Notes under the pieces: generated by a model
What the model saw: the letters and a program-made list of their open reading frames with translations, nothing else
What the model was told of the DNA's origin: nothing
Databases searched by the model: none
In this document: positions 12,537 to 25,289 of the stretch, in pieces
Numbering within the stretch: the first letter of the stretch is position 1
How the letters are laid out: each line of letters begins with the position of its first letter
Program-made: the position numbers and the translations under genes
Assembly: GCF_018413645.1 (NCBI RefSeq)
Contig: NZ_JAHCDA010000002.1
Span: forward strand, 434,001-498,000
DNA: 64,000 nucleotides
From: Roseococcus pinisoli
GTDB lineage: Bacteria; Pseudomonadota; Alphaproteobacteria; Acetobacterales; Acetobacteraceae
Direction of reading: 5' to 3'

Positions 12537-13160
12537 ATGGAAGCCTTCCGGATCGTCGAGGGCACCGCCATTCCGCTGATGGAAGCGAATGTCGATACCG
12601 ATGTGATCATCCCGATCCAGCGCCTGGTCGGCTCCGGCCGGGAGGGGCTCGGCGAATTCGCCTTCGAGCGGCGGCGCTACCTGCCGGACCGCAGCGACAA
12701 TCCGGACTTCATCCCCAACCAGGGGCCCTACAAGGGCAGCGGCATCCTGCTCGCCGACGAGAATTTCGGTTGCGGCTCCTCGCGGGAGGGGGCGGTCTGG
12801 GCGCTGATGGGCATGGGCGTGCGCTGCGTCATCGCGCCGAGCTTCGGCGACATCTTCTTCTCGAACTGCTTCCAGAACGGGCTGCTGCCGGTGCGCCTGC
12901 CGATCGAGGCCATCCGACGGATCGCCGAGCAGACCGAGGAAAGCCCCGGCAATGCCCGCACGACGGTGGACCTGGAGCGCAAGGTGGTGATCACGCCGCG
13001 CGGCGAGACCATTCCCTTCGCCGTGGACGACCGCAAGCGCGAGGCCATGCTGGACGGGCTCGACGACATCTCGCTCACGCTGAAGCAGGCGGATGCCATC
13101 GCCGCCTGGCGTGAGCAGGACAGGACGGAACGCAATTGGGCGTGGGAGAGTGTGGTTTGA
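12537..13160 (+). CDS. leuD: 3-isopropylmalate dehydratase small subunit
   Basis: Swivelling-domain partner of LeuC, 207 residues, which completes the isopropylmalate isomerase active site. Family motifs are VDTDVIIPIQRLV near the N-terminus, the substrate loop NFGCGSSREGAVWAL and the segment APSFGDIFFSNCFQNGLLPV. The ATG lies one base after the leuC stop, and the last codon overlaps the TTG start proposed for leuB, so leuC-leuD-leuB form one translationally coupled unit. Confidence 0.94.
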   Translation: MEAFRIVEGTAIPLMEANVDTDVIIPIQRLVGSGREGLGEFAFERRRYLPDRSDNPDFIPNQGPYKGSGILLADENFGCGSSREGAVWALMGMGVRCVIAPSFGDIFFSNCFQNGLLPVRLPIEAIRRIAEQTEESPGNARTTVDLERKVVITPRGETIPFAVDDRKREAMLDGLDDISLTLKQADAIAAWREQDRTERNWAWESVV

Positions 13161-14260
13161 AGATTCTGGTTCTTGCCGGTGACGGCGTCGGCCCCGAGGT
13201 GACGGGCCAGGCCGTGCGCGTGCTGCAGTGGTTCGCGCAGAACCGCAACCTCGATCTCCGCCTCACCGAGCGCGACTTCGGCATGACCAACTGGCAGAAG
13301 CACGGCACCCTGATGCCGGACGAGACCTGGGAGCAGATCCAGGCGGCCGACGCCATTCTCTTCGGCGCCACCGGCAGTCTCGATCAGGCCGCGGTCATCC
13401 CGCCGGAAGAGCGCCGCAAGGGCTCGCTGCTGCGCATGCGCAAGGGGCTCGACGTCTTCGCCAATATGCGCCCGGTGAAGATGCAGCCCGCGCTGGCCGA
13501 GGGCAGCCCCTACAAGCCCCGCGTGACCGAGGGCGTCGACCTCATCTTCGTGCGCGAGCTGACGGCCGGCATGTATTTCGGTACGCCGCGCGGCGTCGAG
13601 ACCCTGCCCGACGGCACCCGCCGGGGCGTGAACACCCATACCTATACCGAGGCCGAGATCCGGCGCGCCGTGCGCTTTGCCTTCGAGCTGGCGCGCAGCC
13701 GGCGCAACCACGTGACCAGCGTGGACAAGGCCAATGTGATGGAGGCCGGTGCGCTGTGGCGCGAGATCGCGGGGGCGATCCACAAGGAGGAATTCCCCGA
13801 TGTCGGCTTCGAGCACATGCTGGCCGACAATTGCGCCATCCAGCTGGCCCGCAACCCCACGCGCTTCGACGTGCTGGTGACCGACAACCTCTTCGGAGAC
13901 CTGCTGAGCGACGCGGCCGGGGCCATCATCGGTTCGCTCGGCATGCTGCCCTCGGCCTCGCTCTCCGCGCCCGATGCCCAGGGGCGCCGACGCGCGCTCT
14001 ACGAGCCGATCCATGGCTCGGCGCCCGACATCGCGGGGAAGGGGATTGCGAACCCGTTGGGCTCCATCCTCTCGGTCGCGATGATGCTGCGCTGGAGCGC
14101 GAACCGGCCGGAGGATGCGGCACTCCTGGAGAAGGCCGTGGAAGGCGCGCTGGCGAAAGGCGCGCGCACGGCCGATATCGCTTCGCCCGGCGAGGCGGTC
14201 GTCTCCACGAGCGGCATGGGCGATGCCGTGATCGCGGCGCTGGAGAACGCGGCGCGCTGA
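13157..14260 (+). CDS. leuB: 3-isopropylmalate dehydrogenase
   Basis: NAD-dependent beta-decarboxylating dehydrogenase of 367 residues. Motifs: GDGVGPEV at the N-terminus, RMRKGLDVFANMRPVKM with the substrate arginines, SVDKANVME with the catalytic Lys, DNLFGDLLSDAAGAIIGSLG with the metal-binding aspartates, and EPIHGSAPDIAGKGIANPLG for NAD binding. A TTG start at 13157 is proposed because GGGAGAG lies six bases upstream and it gives the usual N-terminus KILVLAGDG. It overlaps the leuD stop (TTGA). The linker around residues 150-170 is not identical to typical LeuB, so a related malate/tartrate-type dehydrogenase is possible, but adjacency to leuCD favours LeuB. Confidence 0.87.
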   Translation: MKILVLAGDGVGPEVTGQAVRVLQWFAQNRNLDLRLTERDFGMTNWQKHGTLMPDETWEQIQAADAILFGATGSLDQAAVIPPEERRKGSLLRMRKGLDVFANMRPVKMQPALAEGSPYKPRVTEGVDLIFVRELTAGMYFGTPRGVETLPDGTRRGVNTHTYTEAEIRRAVRFAFELARSRRNHVTSVDKANVMEAGALWREIAGAIHKEEFPDVGFEHMLADNCAIQLARNPTRFDVLVTDNLFGDLLSDAAGAIIGSLGMLPSASLSAPDAQGRRRALYEPIHGSAPDIAGKGIANPLGSILSVAMMLRWSANRPEDAALLEKAVEGALAKGARTADIASPGEAVVSTSGMGDAVIAALENAAR

Positions 14261-14287
14261 ACCGGCGCCCGCTCGCCGCGCCGGTTC
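14259..14287. terminator. Bidirectional hairpin between leuB and the histidine kinase gene
   Basis: GAACCGGCGC (14259-14268) and GCGCCGGTTC (14278-14287) form a perfect 10-bp stem with a 9-base loop. It spans the 25-base gap between two convergent genes and touches both stop codons. A shared terminator is the likely function, although no strong U-tract is present on either side. Confidence 0.65.
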
Positions 14288-15716
14288 AGGCGGCGGCGAG
14301 CGGGAAGCGCAGGTCCCAGGTCACGCCGTGCTCGGGGAAGGCCAGCGTCACCGAGCCTTCCACGGCCTGCGCAACGGCCCATTCCAGGACGTCGCGCCCG
14401 AAGCCGCGGCGGCTGCTTGGCCGCACCTCGGGGCCGCCGGTCTCGCGCCAGGAAACCAGGCATTCCTCGGCCGTGGTCTCCCAGGACAGCCGCACCCGGC
14501 CATCCGGCACCGAGAGGGCGCCATATTTCGCGGCATTGGTCGCCAGTTCGTGCAGCGCCATGCCGATGTGCAGCACCGCCGGGTTGTGGAGATGCACCGG
14601 GGGGCCGGAGACCTCGATCCGGTCGTTCTGGAACGGGGCCAGCTGCACCTCCGCAACCTCGCCCAGTGTCGAGACCTGCCCATCCTCGCGCACCAGCAGC
14701 TGCTGCGCCTCGGACAACGAATGCAGCCGGTCGGAAAGGCGCTCCGCCAGTTCCTCCTGCGTCGCGGCGCCGGCTGCGGTCTGGCGCAGCAGGGCCTGCA
14801 CGACCGCGAGCAGATTGCCGACGCGATGCTTCACCTCGTTATGGAGGAAGCGGATGCGGTCCTCGCTGGCCCTACGGGCGGTGATGTCGACGGCGCCCCC
14901 GATCAGGCCCGGCCCCTCACGCATCGGCTCCAGGATGATGTCGAACCAGCGCTCGCCCACCTGGACCTGCGCCCGCGCCTGCTGGCCGGTCTCGAGCACG
15001 CCGTGCTCCAGGCCGACGATCTCGCTCAGGGCCGGCTCCGGCAGCACCTCCTGCACGCTGCGACCGACGACGTCCCGGCCGGGCTGGCCGAGATCCCCCT
15101 TGCTCATCCAGGTGAAGGTGAGGTTCTCGTCCTGCGAGAAGACGGTGACGCCGGAGGCAGCGAGCGCCGTCTCGAACCGCCGGTTCACGGCCGCCAGCGT
15201 CTCCGTCCGATCGGCGACGCGGCGTTCGAGCGTGGCGGCGAGCTCCGTCAGCTCCGCTTCGCGCCGCTGCAGTGCCTGGACCAGCGTGTTGCGCTCCACG
15301 ATCCGCCTCTCCAGCGCGGCATTGGCCTCGCTCAGGGTGGAGGGAGCGGGAAGGGCGATCAGCCTGGGCAGCAGTGGCCAGAGGAGGACGGCCGTCACGA
15401 CCGAGACGCCAGCGGTGGCGACCTTCACCAGCCCCTCGAGCCAGTAATAGGGCAGCCAGAGCGTCAGAATCCCGAAGAAGTGCGACAGGCTGCAGAACAG
15501 CATGAAGCCGGCGAAAAGCCAGCCGAGCCAGGGGAAGGCGACGTCGGGCCGGCGGCGCAGGAAGGCGACGGTCGCCACGGCAATGGAGATGTAGGAGAGG
15601 GCGATCAGCACGTCCGAGGCCGAGTGCAGCCAGATCAGGCCCGGTTCCCAGAGGAGGCAGAAGCCGTGGGGCGTCAGGACCGACGGCTCGAAGAGGCTGC
15701 TCATCAGGCTGCTCAT
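14286..15716 (-). CDS. HWE-family sensor histidine kinase with ethylene-receptor-like membrane domain
   Basis: Membrane kinase of 476 residues. Three N-terminal hydrophobic helices (about 28-53, 61-84, 88-112) align with the ethylene-binding domain of plant ETR1. ASDVLIALSYISIA and FMLFCSLSHFFGI place Asp35, Tyr42, Ile45, Cys75 and His79 at exactly the spacing of ETR1 Asp25, Tyr32, Ile35, Cys65 and His69, where Cys and His coordinate copper(I). A coiled coil (about 120-175) and a PAS domain (about 178-285) follow. The kinase has His297 in NEVKHRVGNLLAVVQ, the N-box HELATNAAKYGAL and SWRETGGPEV, the W-x-E feature that names the HWE group. No response regulator is adjacent. Ethylene or copper binding is inferred from residue conservation. 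Confidence 0.85.
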   Translation of the reverse strand: MSSLMSSLFEPSVLTPHGFCLLWEPGLIWLHSASDVLIALSYISIAVATVAFLRRRPDVAFPWLGWLFAGFMLFCSLSHFFGILTLWLPYYWLEGLVKVATAGVSVVTAVLLWPLLPRLIALPAPSTLSEANAALERRIVERNTLVQALQRREAELTELAATLERRVADRTETLAAVNRRFETALAASGVTVFSQDENLTFTWMSKGDLGQPGRDVVGRSVQEVLPEPALSEIVGLEHGVLETGQQARAQVQVGERWFDIILEPMREGPGLIGGAVDITARRASEDRIRFLHNEVKHRVGNLLAVVQALLRQTAAGAATQEELAERLSDRLHSLSEAQQLLVREDGQVSTLGEVAEVQLAPFQNDRIEVSGPPVHLHNPAVLHIGMALHELATNAAKYGALSVPDGRVRLSWETTAEECLVSWRETGGPEVRPSSRRGFGRDVLEWAVAQAVEGSVTLAFPEHGVTWDLRFPLAAA

Positions 15717-15783
15717 GAAGTCCCCCCGGGCCGGCCCGCCTACTCCACTACAAAACCGCCAGCCGCATGGATCGGGACGATTA

Positions 15784-16997
<1,214 letters not shown>

Positions 16998-17001
<4 letters not shown>

Positions 17002-18062
17002 GCGGGCTTCTCCAGAAGGGCGACCGCCTCGCCGCGCCATTGGCCCGTCCCGGTCACGAGCACCTGAGGCGCGCCGGCCGCGATGGCCAGGGCGCCGAGG
17101 GCGAGGCCCATCGGGAAGGCAGCCTCCACGGCATGGCCGACCAGGTCGGCCGTGAAGAGGTCGGGCGTGGTGCCGAGGGCCGCCAGTTCGTCCCGCGTGG
17201 GGCCGGGAGCGCCGCAGGCGGTCGAGATGGTGAGGCAGCCGGGGCTGCGCTCCGGCAGCCCCGCGAAGAGGGCGGCAAGGCGATCGGGCCGGCCGGCTGC
17301 GGGGCCCTGGTCGGTCGCGATATGGGACAGCACAGCCAGGGGCGAGGCTGCCGTCGTGGCCGGTTCCAGCGTCAGGAAGGCCGCCGCGCTGCCGAAGACC
17401 ATGCCCGGGCGCCCGGGCAGCGGCTGCCAGGGGCCGGCCTGCAGGGCGCCGCCGAAGGCATAGAGCAGCAGCTGGTCGAACCGCTCGCCCGCGAAGGCGC
17501 CGCCGACCAGGCCGAGCTCGGAAGTTCCCGCCGCGATGCGCGCGGCCTGGACACGAATGGCCTCGGCGCCCGCGATCTCCTCGCCGAGCAGCGTGCGCGA
17601 GGAGCCCGCGACGTTGTGGACGATGGAGATGGAGCCCGCGAGGAGATTGGAGAGCTGGGCAAGGAACAGCGTCGGGCGCAGCCCGTCCATCAGCATGCGA
17701 TGGCGCCCGGCCTCGTCGGGCCTGACGGCCAGGATCTGCTCGTCCAGCGCCGTGTCGCGCTCGCCGCCGCCGGCGGCCACGATGAGATCCACCTCGGCCA
17801 CGCGGTCGCGCAGGCCCGCATCGTCGAGGGCGAGGCCGGCCGCATAGACGCCCAGCCGCTGCCAGGTCTCCATCTGCCGCATCTCGCGGCGGGGGATGGT
17901 GGTGTCGAAGGGAAGGGGTGCGAGCGGATGGACCGGGTAAGGGGCGAAACGCACCTCGTCCAGGACGGGCGCGGCACCCTTCAGGAGTGCGGCATGCGCC
18001 GATCGGCCCTCGCCCTGCGAGGAGGCGAGGCCGACGCCGGTAATCGCGACAGGGCGCTTCAT
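16998..18062 (-). CDS. Beta-ketoacyl synthase-like protein lacking the catalytic cysteine (FabF2XL-like)
   Basis: Thiolase-fold protein of 354 residues, about 50 shorter than a normal KAS. The N-terminus RPVAITGVGLASSQGEG is typical, but the nucleophile elbow near residue 150 reads IVHNVAGSSRTLLGEE with no cysteine, and the first histidine region reads STACGAPGPTRDE instead of the normal HGTGT-type motif. A later His in ADLVGHAVEAAFPMG is kept. Loss of Cys with retained fold recalls chain-length-factor subunits of type II polyketide synthases. It lies between fabZ and the intact ketosynthase with four-base overlaps on both sides, so a heterodimer with that ketosynthase is a reasonable inference. 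Confidence 0.8.
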
Positions 18063-18508
18063 GCCGCAAGCCCGATCGCGGCCGCGCGGGTCCGGACGGC
18101 CTGCTCGAGGTCCGGGGAGGGGAAGGTCATGGTGCGCAAGGTCAGCTCCGCCTCGGCCACGCGGGTGTTTCCGTCGGCCAGGATGCCCTTCAGAACGGCA
18201 TAGCCCGAGCCGTCATGGATCAGCTCGGCCGTGACGGTCAGGATGGCGCCGGGCTTCACCATGCCGCGCATCTTCGCCTCGCCGACCTTGGCCAACAGCG
18301 CCATGCGGGTGAAGCCGCTGCGGGCGAGCATGAGCCAGCCGCAGGCCTGGGCCATGGTCTCGACCATCAGCACGCCCGGCAGAAGGGGAAAGCCCGGAAA
18401 ATGCCCCTCGAAGACGGGGCTTGCCTCGGGCACACGGGCTTCGGCGACGAGCCGGGCCTCCTCGCGGGAGGTGACCCGGTCGATCATCTCGAAATATTCC
18501 AGGCGCAA
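18059..18508 (-). CDS. 3-hydroxyacyl-ACP dehydratase (FabZ-like, FabZXL position)
   Basis: Hotdog-fold dehydratase of 149 residues that removes water from 3-hydroxyacyl-ACP during chain elongation. The active-site helix is intact: His36 in EGHFPGFPLLPG and Glu50 in VLMVETMAQACGW. It begins three bases after the acpXL stop and overlaps the next ketosynthase-like gene by four bases, so it is part of one translationally coupled operon. The C-terminus is slightly extended relative to housekeeping FabZ. The neighbouring AcpXL-type carrier suggests it works on very long acyl chains. Confidence 0.86.
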   Translation of the reverse strand: MRLEYFEMIDRVTSREEARLVAEARVPEASPVFEGHFPGFPLLPGVLMVETMAQACGWLMLARSGFTRMALLAKVGEAKMRGMVKPGAILTVTAELIHDGSGYAVLKGILADGNTRVAEAELTLRTMTFPSPDLEQAVRTRAAAIGLAA

Positions 18509-18511
18509 GCT

Positions 18512-18808
18512 TCAGGCCTGCTTGGCGGCCACGAGTTCCTCGATGCGCTCGGCGAGGGGGCCCATGACGAAGAACTGCTCGGCCGGGGCCTTGCCGCTGT
18601 TCACCTGCTCGGTCCAGGCCTCGACCGGCACCTTGATGCCGAAGCGCTTGTCGATCTCGAAGACGATGTCGAGGAAATCGAGGCTGTCGATGCCGAGGTC
18701 GTTGATGACGTGAGCCTCCGGCGTGATCTTCGCGCGGTCCACATTGGCCGTTTCCGCGATGATATCGGCGATGGTCTCGAAGGTCTGGTCAGGCGCGGCC
18801 TGGCTCAC
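18512..18808 (-). CDS. acpXL: Acyl carrier protein, AcpXL type
   Basis: Acyl carrier protein of 98 residues with phosphopantetheine site Ser42 in [20 protein letters not shown]. Residues [20 protein letters not shown] and the region after the helix, [20 protein letters not shown], closely follow rhizobial AcpXL, the special carrier that delivers a C28-type hydroxy fatty acid to lipid A. It is longer than AcpP. A GTG start at 18808 gives the usual short N-terminus; no ATG is available in frame nearby. It leads the operon with fabZ and two ketosynthase-like genes and is divergent from the ATP-grasp gene. Confidence 0.85.
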
Positions 18809-18979
18809 GGCGGCGGACTCCGGGTCGAATGAGGGGGTGGCAGGGTTTGGCGCGGATGGGCCGCCATGTCCAGCCGCCGCGCAGCCCGACGGGTCCGCGG
18901 CCGCAGCCCGGCGCTGATCCGCTCCCTCCCGCTGGACGGAACGGGCGGCGTCGGTGAAGAGAGCGCGCGCGGCATCTTC

Positions 18980-19861
18980 ATGAGCATACCCGAGAATATG
19001 ATGGATTCGTTCATCTCGTCTGAAAATGTGAAGACGATCCATGTCGTCGTCTATGGAGTTCATTCCCAGGACTGGACGAATGCTTTCGCCCCGGAGAGCG
19101 AGCTCTGGCACAGTCTGCCGCAGGTCGGTCAGGTATCCTGCATCGAGGCCGATCCCGGCGAGCTCGAGCGCCTGATGGCCGATAGCTCCCTGGAGGTCGT
19201 GGCGATTCCCCTCATGGAGGAGCATGCCGACCGGCTGCCTCCGCGGGTTGCCCGGTTCCATCCGTCCCGGCCGGTTTCCGACCTGCTGCGGAACAAGCGG
19301 CAGACGCTGGACTACGCGGCGGCGCAGGGCTTCGGGCATTGGTGCCCGGAGGTCTATGCCGAGGTCAGCCAGATCAGGTTTCCCTGCATCATCAAGCGGG
19401 TGGACCTCAATGCCAGCGCGGGGGTGGATATCGCCCATTCGCGCCGCGGGCTCGCGGCCCGGCTCGGCTCGGCGCTGGAGCTGCCGCCGGATGTGGTCGT
19501 CCAGGCCTTCGTCTATGGCTCCGAGGAATACGCGACCTACCTCGTGATGGAGGAGGGCGAGATCCTCTGGGATGCCACCTTCTGCTACGAGATGGAGTTC
19601 AGCGACGTGGTCCGGCGCCCGGGCACCGCGCCCGCGCAGCGAGTCGCGACACCGGGCCGCATCCTCGCGCAGTTCCGCGATTTCCTGGTGCCCTTGCGAT
19701 ATTCCGGCCCCTGCAACGTCGACTACAAGATCCGGCCCAATGGCGAGGCCGCGATCTTCGAGGTGAACCCCCGCCTGGGCGGCTCGCTGATGAAGCACGA
19801 GAACCTCGACCTGCGGCGCGAGGCCGTGGCGCTCATCCTGGATCGTGCCCGCTGTCCCTAG
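18980..19861 (+). CDS. ATP-grasp domain protein of unknown substrate
   Basis: Carbamoyl-phosphate-synthase-like ATP-grasp protein of 293 residues. Visible parts are the entry to the ATP-grasp fold ([20 protein letters not shown], about 95-114), a lysine strand [18 protein letters not shown], the adenine-binding strand [19 protein letters not shown] and the metal-binding segment [14 protein letters not shown] near the C-terminus with Glu and Asn ligands. Such enzymes join a carboxylate to an amine or thiol through an acyl phosphate. Substrate and partners cannot be told. It is divergent from acpXL and convergent with an MFS gene whose stop codon overlaps its own. The first 40 residues are unlike known families; ATG codons at 18998 and 19001 are alternative starts. 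Confidence 0.75.
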
Positions 19862-25202: not shown

Positions 25203-25289
25203 TGGTGCGGGTGGCCGGACTCGAACCGGCAAGGTCTTGCGACCGGGAGATTTTGAGTCTCCTGCGTGGACCAATTCCGCCACACCCGC
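25203..25289 (-). tRNA. tRNA-Leu (anticodon CAA)
   Basis: Reading the minus strand, a 7-bp acceptor stem GCGGGTG/CACCCGC closes a cloverleaf with a long variable arm, as in class II tRNAs. The anticodon stem GGAGA/TCTCC holds loop CTCAAAA, giving anticodon CAA for the UUG codon. The T arm reads CCGGTTCGAGTCCGG. Discriminator A is followed by an encoded CCA. It is transcribed leftward, and its upstream flank (25290 onward) is the disturbed region. Confidence 0.93.

Follow-up and report, generated by a model that had tools for sequence, protein, structure and literature searches.

A bacterial ethylene-receptor-family HWE kinase with its copper-ligand pair kept and its ethylene pocket altered, encoded beside an acpXL-type cluster in Roseococcus pinisoli

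The locus

The stretch of DNA analysed, here called the window, comprises 64,000 nucleotides of the alphaproteobacterium Roseococcus pinisoli (contig NZ_JAHCDA010000002.1, positions 434,001 to 498,000). It carries a gene for a sensor histidine kinase of 476 amino acids, the reading frame of which had been called in an earlier note on this DNA; strand and coordinates of that call are exact. The gene, the domains of its product, and its neighbours are the following:

13160..14260 (+), leuB, convergent neighbour (start approximate)
14286..15716 (-), coding sequence for ETR1_N, coiled linker, PAS domain and HWE histidine kinase, 476 aa (open reading frame list, Pfam, AlphaFold)
14301..14837 (-), HWE kinase core, residues 294-472 (Pfam, AlphaFold, Foldseek)
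14868..15152 (-), PAS-fold domain, residues 189-283 (PAS_4 20.4 bits, below the cut-off of 23.1; PAS-like strands and helices in the AlphaFold model)
15354..15644 (-), three membrane helices, residues 25-121 (ETR1_N match 27-122; Pfam, hydropathy, AlphaFold)
15784..17004 (-), fabF1XL-like ketoacyl-ACP synthase (PRK06501 515 bits, below the cut-off of 629; start approximate)
16998..18062 (-), fabF2XL-like synthase (PRK06519 362 bits, cut-off 320)
18059..18508 (-), fabZ-like dehydratase, scoring less than the cut-offs of the FabZ equivalogs
18512..18820 (-), acpXL-type acyl carrier protein (PRK06508 143 bits, cut-off 83; start approximate)

PRK06508 and PRK06519, models which are named just acyl carrier protein and beta-ketoacyl-ACP synthase, are taken by us to describe XL proteins. 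No lpxXL was found among the eight neighbouring proteins scanned. As a gap of 67 bp separates the end of fabF1, which lies upstream on the same strand, from the start of the kinase gene, co-transcription of the kinase gene with the fatty-acid genes is plausible, and it is probably transcribed together with these envelope-lipid genes. A scan of positions 14000-19000 for promoters and terminators found nothing, which says little because only about 0.1 and 1.2, respectively, are expected by chance. The window contains no tRNA other than a tRNA-Leu (CAA) at 25203-25289 (-), which is also its sole Rfam match at the gathering threshold.

Domains and fold of the kinase

The front of the protein had been read as a three-helix membrane domain, and profile search, hydropathy, and structure prediction all agree with that reading. 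Residues 27-122 match the Pfam family ETR1_N (PF25487) with an E-value of 2.6e-32 and 111.4 bits against a cut-off of 27 (115.4 bits in the genome-wide search of the source genome), so that the profile alignment proposed in the earlier note places the helices in this family and not in another family of membrane sensors. Hydropathy also gives three helices, and AlphaFold puts them at residues 25-55, 62-87, and 91-121, followed by a long helix (125-184), a PAS-like domain, and the kinase core. The model was built from a 47-row alignment and has a mean pLDDT of 83.2 and a pTM of 0.40, with block pLDDT values of 84-96 for residues 31-120 and 73 for residues 21-30. A search by sequence turned up no solved structure for the membrane domain, the sole match having an E-value of 0.48.

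The assignment of the output half as an HWE kinase was likewise borne out. HWE_HK matches residues 294-372 (3.5e-21, 76.2 bits, cut-off 22.8), and all kinase boxes are intact (H297 as phospho-acceptor, H389-E390, N394, and W423-x-E425), when assigned by what we take to be the definition of the HWE motif (H-box, N-box His/Glu, W-x-E). The top ranks in Foldseek are held by the Brucella LOV-HK structures 6ph4 and 5epv.

Direct identity to Arabidopsis ETR1 is just 30% over 91 columns (BLASTP against ETR1 residues 1-113, E 3e-9), which could be taken to mean that a different family of membrane sensors merely resembles ETR1 by convergence. We regard this as extremely improbable, and the ETR1_N profile search rules it out: the profile scores 111 bits, and 21 relatives share 45-77% identity within the domain, 17 of them with all seven residues required for ethylene binding by ETR1. 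The window protein is a genuine sensor kinase of the ethylene-receptor family.

The copper/ethylene pocket

Seven residues are needed for ethylene binding by ETR1, and AzoEtr1 of Azospirillum brasilense as well as two Geitlerinema proteins are described as keeping all of them (PMC11819568, PMC6682694). I35, P36, and I62 are named among these residues (PMC6586836). In the window protein D35, Y42, I45, C75, and H79 stand opposite ETR1 D25, Y32, I35, C65, and H69, with the constant offset of 10 over helices 1 and 2 that had been noted before, and Cys75/His79 do align with the copper-ligand pair Cys65/His69. K98 corresponds to K91 of ETR1 and K98 of AzoEtr1 (numbering of PMC11819568), and Phe71 is likewise kept. 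In all, five of the seven binding-essential residues are present, while those corresponding to P36 and I62 are changed. The codons concerned, all on the minus strand, are:

15612..15614 (-), Asp35 (ETR1 Asp25; BLASTP alignment)
15579..15581 (-), Ala46 (ETR1 Pro36), changed; Pro in 130 of 147 listed domain sequences
15501..15503 (-), Met72 (ETR1 Ile62), changed; Ile in 135 of 147 listed, Met only in the window
15492..15494 (-), Cys75 (ETR1 Cys65, copper ligand; alignment)
15489..15491 (-), Ser76 (ETR1 Gly66), changed; Gly in 141 of 147 listed
15480..15482 (-), His79 (ETR1 His69, copper ligand; alignment)

The earlier note had reported Ala46 as the one departure from ETR1; this change is real, but Met72 had been missed, and Ser76 in place of Gly66 is a further one. 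On ideal helices the three changed residues lie 30 (A46), 40 (M72), and 80 degrees (S76) from the ligand face. P36 and I62 are both required for ethylene binding by ETR1 (PMC11819568, PMC6586836), I62A is listed among mutations that diminish binding (PMC8879215), and the squash ETR1A mutants, with P36L among their mutations, all show a reduced ethylene response (PMC8012379); these effects were measured in plant receptors and not in the background of the window protein. Because both residues are reported as essential in ETR1, ethylene binding by the window site is expected to be weakened. Of the ethylene-receptor-like site put forward earlier, homology, copper-ligand pair, and HWE kinase hence stand, but binding of ethylene is called into question by A46 and M72.

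The copper pair is kept and the ethylene pocket, as far as can be judged by alignment, is altered. The predicted membrane domain probably still binds Cu(I) between Cys75 and His79; whether it binds ethylene is doubtful, and with A46, M72, and S76 close to where helices 1 and 2 face the ligand, high-affinity binding would be unlikely, or weaker.

Still, the protein might be a working ethylene receptor: the Ala46/Met72/Ser76 pocket would bind the gas at Cu(I), if perhaps less tightly, and the kinase would signal the presence of ethylene from plants or soil, either to the stress response or to the envelope-lipid genes. The domain and the copper ligands are kept together with Asp35, Tyr42, Ile45, Phe71, and Lys98, and AzoEtr1, in which D35, C75, H79, and K98 carry the same numbers, binds ethylene (PMC11819568); moreover, open reading frame and kinase boxes are intact and the gene is under purifying selection (see below). 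We nevertheless consider this somewhat unlikely, given that two of the seven essential residues are changed which all six same-slot relatives compared have kept, and that one of the two, as P36L, goes along with a reduced response in a plant receptor (PMC8012379).

How unusual the altered pocket is

ETR1_N sequences were collected by profile searches of whole genomes at the level of the genus (21 genomes, 8 with a match), the family (200, 46), and the order (395, 64), these sets overlapping, and from genome_contigs. There, a scan with the full-length protein confirmed no relative among 28 candidate stretches; an alignment query confirmed at least 534 of at least 590 candidates, of which the best 80 loci were used. 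The resulting 182 matches reduce to 147 distinct domain sequences including that of the window, 87 from whole genomes and 60 from the best 80 genome_contigs loci; two of the 147 derive from a single interrupted gene, and two frame-split matches were left out.

All seven residues are kept in 111 of the 147 listed sequences and the C65/H69 pair in 133. C65, H69, D25, Y32, and K91 occur together in 116, among which P36 differs in seven and I62 in one. Six sequences other than the window's thus have the copper core without the proline, but only the window sequence, among those listed, combines changes at both P36 and I62 with a conserved Cys, His, Asp, Tyr, and Lys. Within the whole-genome subset (n = 87) the counts are 54 for all seven residues, 73 for the pair, and 59 for the five-residue core; the 57 of 60 genome_contigs sequences with all seven are a biased figure because the patterns used for fetching favour canonical residues.

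Three further kinds of departure were seen in this collection (L and G numbers are our labels for loci and genomes). A second natural group of P36 variants (L178, L180, L182) has Ser at this position and retains the remainder of the copper core. In three full-length proteins that match ETR1_N weakly (L171, L172, L174), Asp or Thr replaces the copper Cys and Glu/Ser replace D25/Y32, with the His kept (ESILLDH, ESLLLTH); judging from these replacements they probably have no copper site. Finally, there are split receptors (L054:6598-7422 (-) with L017; L189:2908-4484; L190:2896-4625), in which a stand-alone ETR1_N protein of 138-146 aa has Asn at the position of ETR1 D25 and keeps C65 and H69, the separate following gene encoding a kinase that has a hydrophobic stretch at its N terminus and, by eye, HWE-like boxes.

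Output domains of related proteins were assigned by Pfam scans, since counting kinase types by motif proved too strict. Among 64 mostly alphaproteobacterial proteins (the window's, five copies from the genus, and 58 of the 60 distinct named loci from the best 80 of at least 534), 34, including the window protein, match HWE_HK, 31 HisKA_2, and 29 HisKA; as 34 of 64 match HWE_HK, the combination of ETR1_N with an HWE kinase is widespread. The pairing is not new but common among the relatives scanned. In 40 further complete proteins, hand-picked from the family and order matches, HisKA was found 28 times and HWE_HK not at all; GGDEF and EAL are each present in five of these 40, and such proteins may possibly link ethylene to cyclic-di-GMP turnover. 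A literature search for ethylene receptors or ethylene binding combined with HWE in bacteria returned no paper; its coverage was partial, and we do not claim that the arrangement is unpublished. Effects of ethylene have been studied in Komagataeibacter, another member of the Acetobacteraceae (PMC4686702).

Place and loss of the gene in the genus

In all eight genomes of the genus that have the gene, it occupies the same slot between convergent leuB (cut by a contig end in G009) and the same-strand genes fabF1-fabF2-fabZ-acp. That an acpXL-type cluster accompanies the receptor copies in general is unsupported: matches to FabF2 and the acyl carrier protein occurred in loci of the genus only, many other loci having short flanks.

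FabF2 is present in 19 of the 21 genus genomes, while no match to the kinase gene was found in 13 of the 21, some of which are incomplete. Five genomes show both flanks (L220, L221, L222, L223, L228), and in these the slot is empty, fabF1 adjoining leuB with no room for a kinase. In another five (G012, G014, G016, G017, G020) no kinase gene follows fabF1 within the 0.7 to 5.3 kb covered, and no leuB is seen in these stretches; in G007 the stretch ends inside fabF1. One copy (G015, a MAG with 7% contamination) is broken: the membrane domain is kept, but linker, PAS domain, and phospho-acceptor region are gone. On a midpoint-rooted tree of four flank proteins from 17 genomes the kinase gene is scattered, and, if it was gained once, about six losses are needed by our own count. 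Repeated insertion into one identical slot is less likely than loss; the genus appears to lose the gene repeatedly.

Evolutionary rate and constraint

The nearest relative in the same slot is the ortholog of Roseococcus sp. SYP-B2431. Between the two genes dN/dS is 0.32 for residues 14-125 (0.39 for 25-118), 0.32 for linker and PAS domain, and 0.28 for the kinase; pairs used for comparison gave 0.06-0.10 (L010-L012) and 0.24-0.38 (L010-L014). As the ratio is about 0.3, the window gene is under purifying selection and is not a pseudogene. It does, however, evolve faster than its ortholog, which the flanking genes do not: branch lengths are 0.263 (window) and 0.086 (ortholog) for the kinase protein, but 0.098 and 0.081 for the flank proteins. 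Relative-rate counts with three outgroup genomes are 45:21, 37:19, and 34:15 for the kinase protein (p 0.004, 0.022, and 0.009) as compared to 32:32, 41:34, and 34:35 for the flanks, although the direct contrast between the two is borderline (p 0.049, 0.21, and 0.038). Outgroups available for one set only gave 41:19 for the kinase protein (L014) and 46:45 (G016) and 40:31 (G001) for the flanks.

The window protein differs from six same-slot relatives that all agree at positions 2, 46, 72, and 76 in the front domain and at five in the PAS domain, with none in the kinase; the invariant positions changed in the ortholog instead are one in the PAS domain, two in the kinase, and none in the front domain. 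P46A, I72M, and G76S are found only in the window among the seven same-slot copies aligned, the nearest ortholog and five other intact copies having kept the proline and the isoleucine. Two of the three changed invariant membrane positions are essential residues (p 0.067). A relaxation confined to the sensor half is unsupported (Fisher p 0.051-0.53 over four outgroups, front against kinase half), and the membrane domain taken alone has no significant excess of changes over the kinase (p 0.27-1.0). The best explanation is that constraint has been relaxed in the window lineage.

Output of the kinase

The statement of the earlier note that there is no adjacent response regulator holds, the neighbours being leuB and fabF1; by an approximate, home-made profile, 39 of the 60 distinct named loci (best 80 of at least 534, some ending near the gene) have a receiver open reading frame within 400 bp. 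Because none is adjacent here, the most likely target of the kinase would be a distant regulator. The search for HWE partners suggested earlier turned up, next to one another on contig 1, a candidate PhyR with receiver and PhyR_sigma2 matches, a NepR, and a sigma factor. The source genome has eight HWE_HK matches, one ETR1_N gene, and two NepR matches, the second of which is not at the PhyR locus but some 3 kb away from a different HWE kinase (G000:C5:1239875-1243247). In other Alphaproteobacteria, HWE kinases take part in stress signalling through PhyR (PMC5964349, PMC5898713, PMC12148442), and PhyR of an EcfG-NepR-PhyR stress module would be the natural candidate for phosphorylation. Matches to ACC deaminase in the genome were all below the cut-off.

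Interpretation

The reading that we prefer, at a probability of roughly one half, is that of a decaying or retuned homologue of the ethylene receptors which probably still binds copper and would feed a PhyR-type regulator. The protein would be a full-length homologue of the bacterial receptors with a ligand pocket that has drifted, probably weakened, possibly retuned: the three membrane helices would hold Cu(I) between Cys75 and His79, while P36A, I62M, and G66S (ETR1 numbering) would lower the binding of ethylene. A signal, if there is any, would run through the coiled linker and the PAS domain to the intact HWE kinase and from there to PhyR of the EcfG-NepR-PhyR module, the kinase presumably being co-expressed with the genes for very-long-chain fatty acid synthesis upstream on the same strand. 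In this lineage the gene would be under relaxed constraint, within a genus that seems to lose it time and again.

Copper ligands and kinase have been kept at a dN/dS of about 0.3 while pocket residues changed together, which would also suit a sensor that has retained its copper site and acquired a new input, be it copper, carbon monoxide, another small olefin, or the state of the membrane, and that controls envelope lipids. Since the gene is dispensable (no match in 13 of the 21 genus genomes, some incomplete) and evolves fast, since the best NCBIfam models of the eight neighbouring proteins scanned include no copper protein, and since nothing positive points to another ligand, we think this improbable. 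Equally improbable is its special form, a natural variant that keeps Cu(I), has swapped ethylene for another input, and, standing behind a lipid A fatty-acid operon, would be made together with the very envelope lipid that it might sense or control. Were retuning nevertheless true, a slot that is filled with the gene in some members of the genus and empty in others would be a natural experiment on the role of a bacterial ethylene receptor.

The altered pocket is of wider interest. A receptor homologue can retain the Cys-His pair and yet have changes at other residues that ETR1 requires, which makes the pair alone a tempting but unsafe label for ethylene receptors. The window protein and its SYP-B2431 ortholog form a close pair of the same slot and length with a differing pocket, by which the residues a bacterial ethylene receptor needs can be tested, and the conserved place behind the acpXL-type cluster is a first hint at what the kinase could regulate in the genus.

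Comparison with known systems

AzoEtr1, also alphaproteobacterial and of similar length (525 aa against 476 aa), is organized like the window protein into membrane domain, PAS domain, and histidine kinase; as described in PMC11819568, it keeps all seven binding residues where the window protein keeps five, and a response regulator gene overlaps its stop codon, whereas none is adjacent to the window gene. Arabidopsis ETR1 and Synechocystis SynEtr1 share the three-helix domain of the Cu(I)/ethylene type with its Cys-His pair; ETR1 has in addition GAF and receiver domains, SynEtr1 has a cyanobacteriochrome, and both, unlike the window protein, keep the seven residues (PMC6586836, PMC6682694, PMC11819568). 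LOV-HK (6ph4, 5epv), the best match among solved structures, has the HWE kinase core in common but is a light sensor with a LOV domain and without ETR1_N. The four genes upstream of the kinase resemble in content and layout the rhizobial acpXL-fabZXL-fabF-lpxXL cluster, which includes the acyltransferase gene lpxXL (PMC5613085), while in the window the kinase gene follows fabF1 instead. Closest is the SYP-B2431 ortholog (L013/L047/L058), with 76% identity over 476 aa and in the same slot, which keeps all seven residues and Gly66 where the window protein does not. New in this analysis are the same-slot position by the acpXL-type cluster in eight of eight genus genomes with the gene, the empty slots and the one broken copy, and the faster evolution of the window copy.
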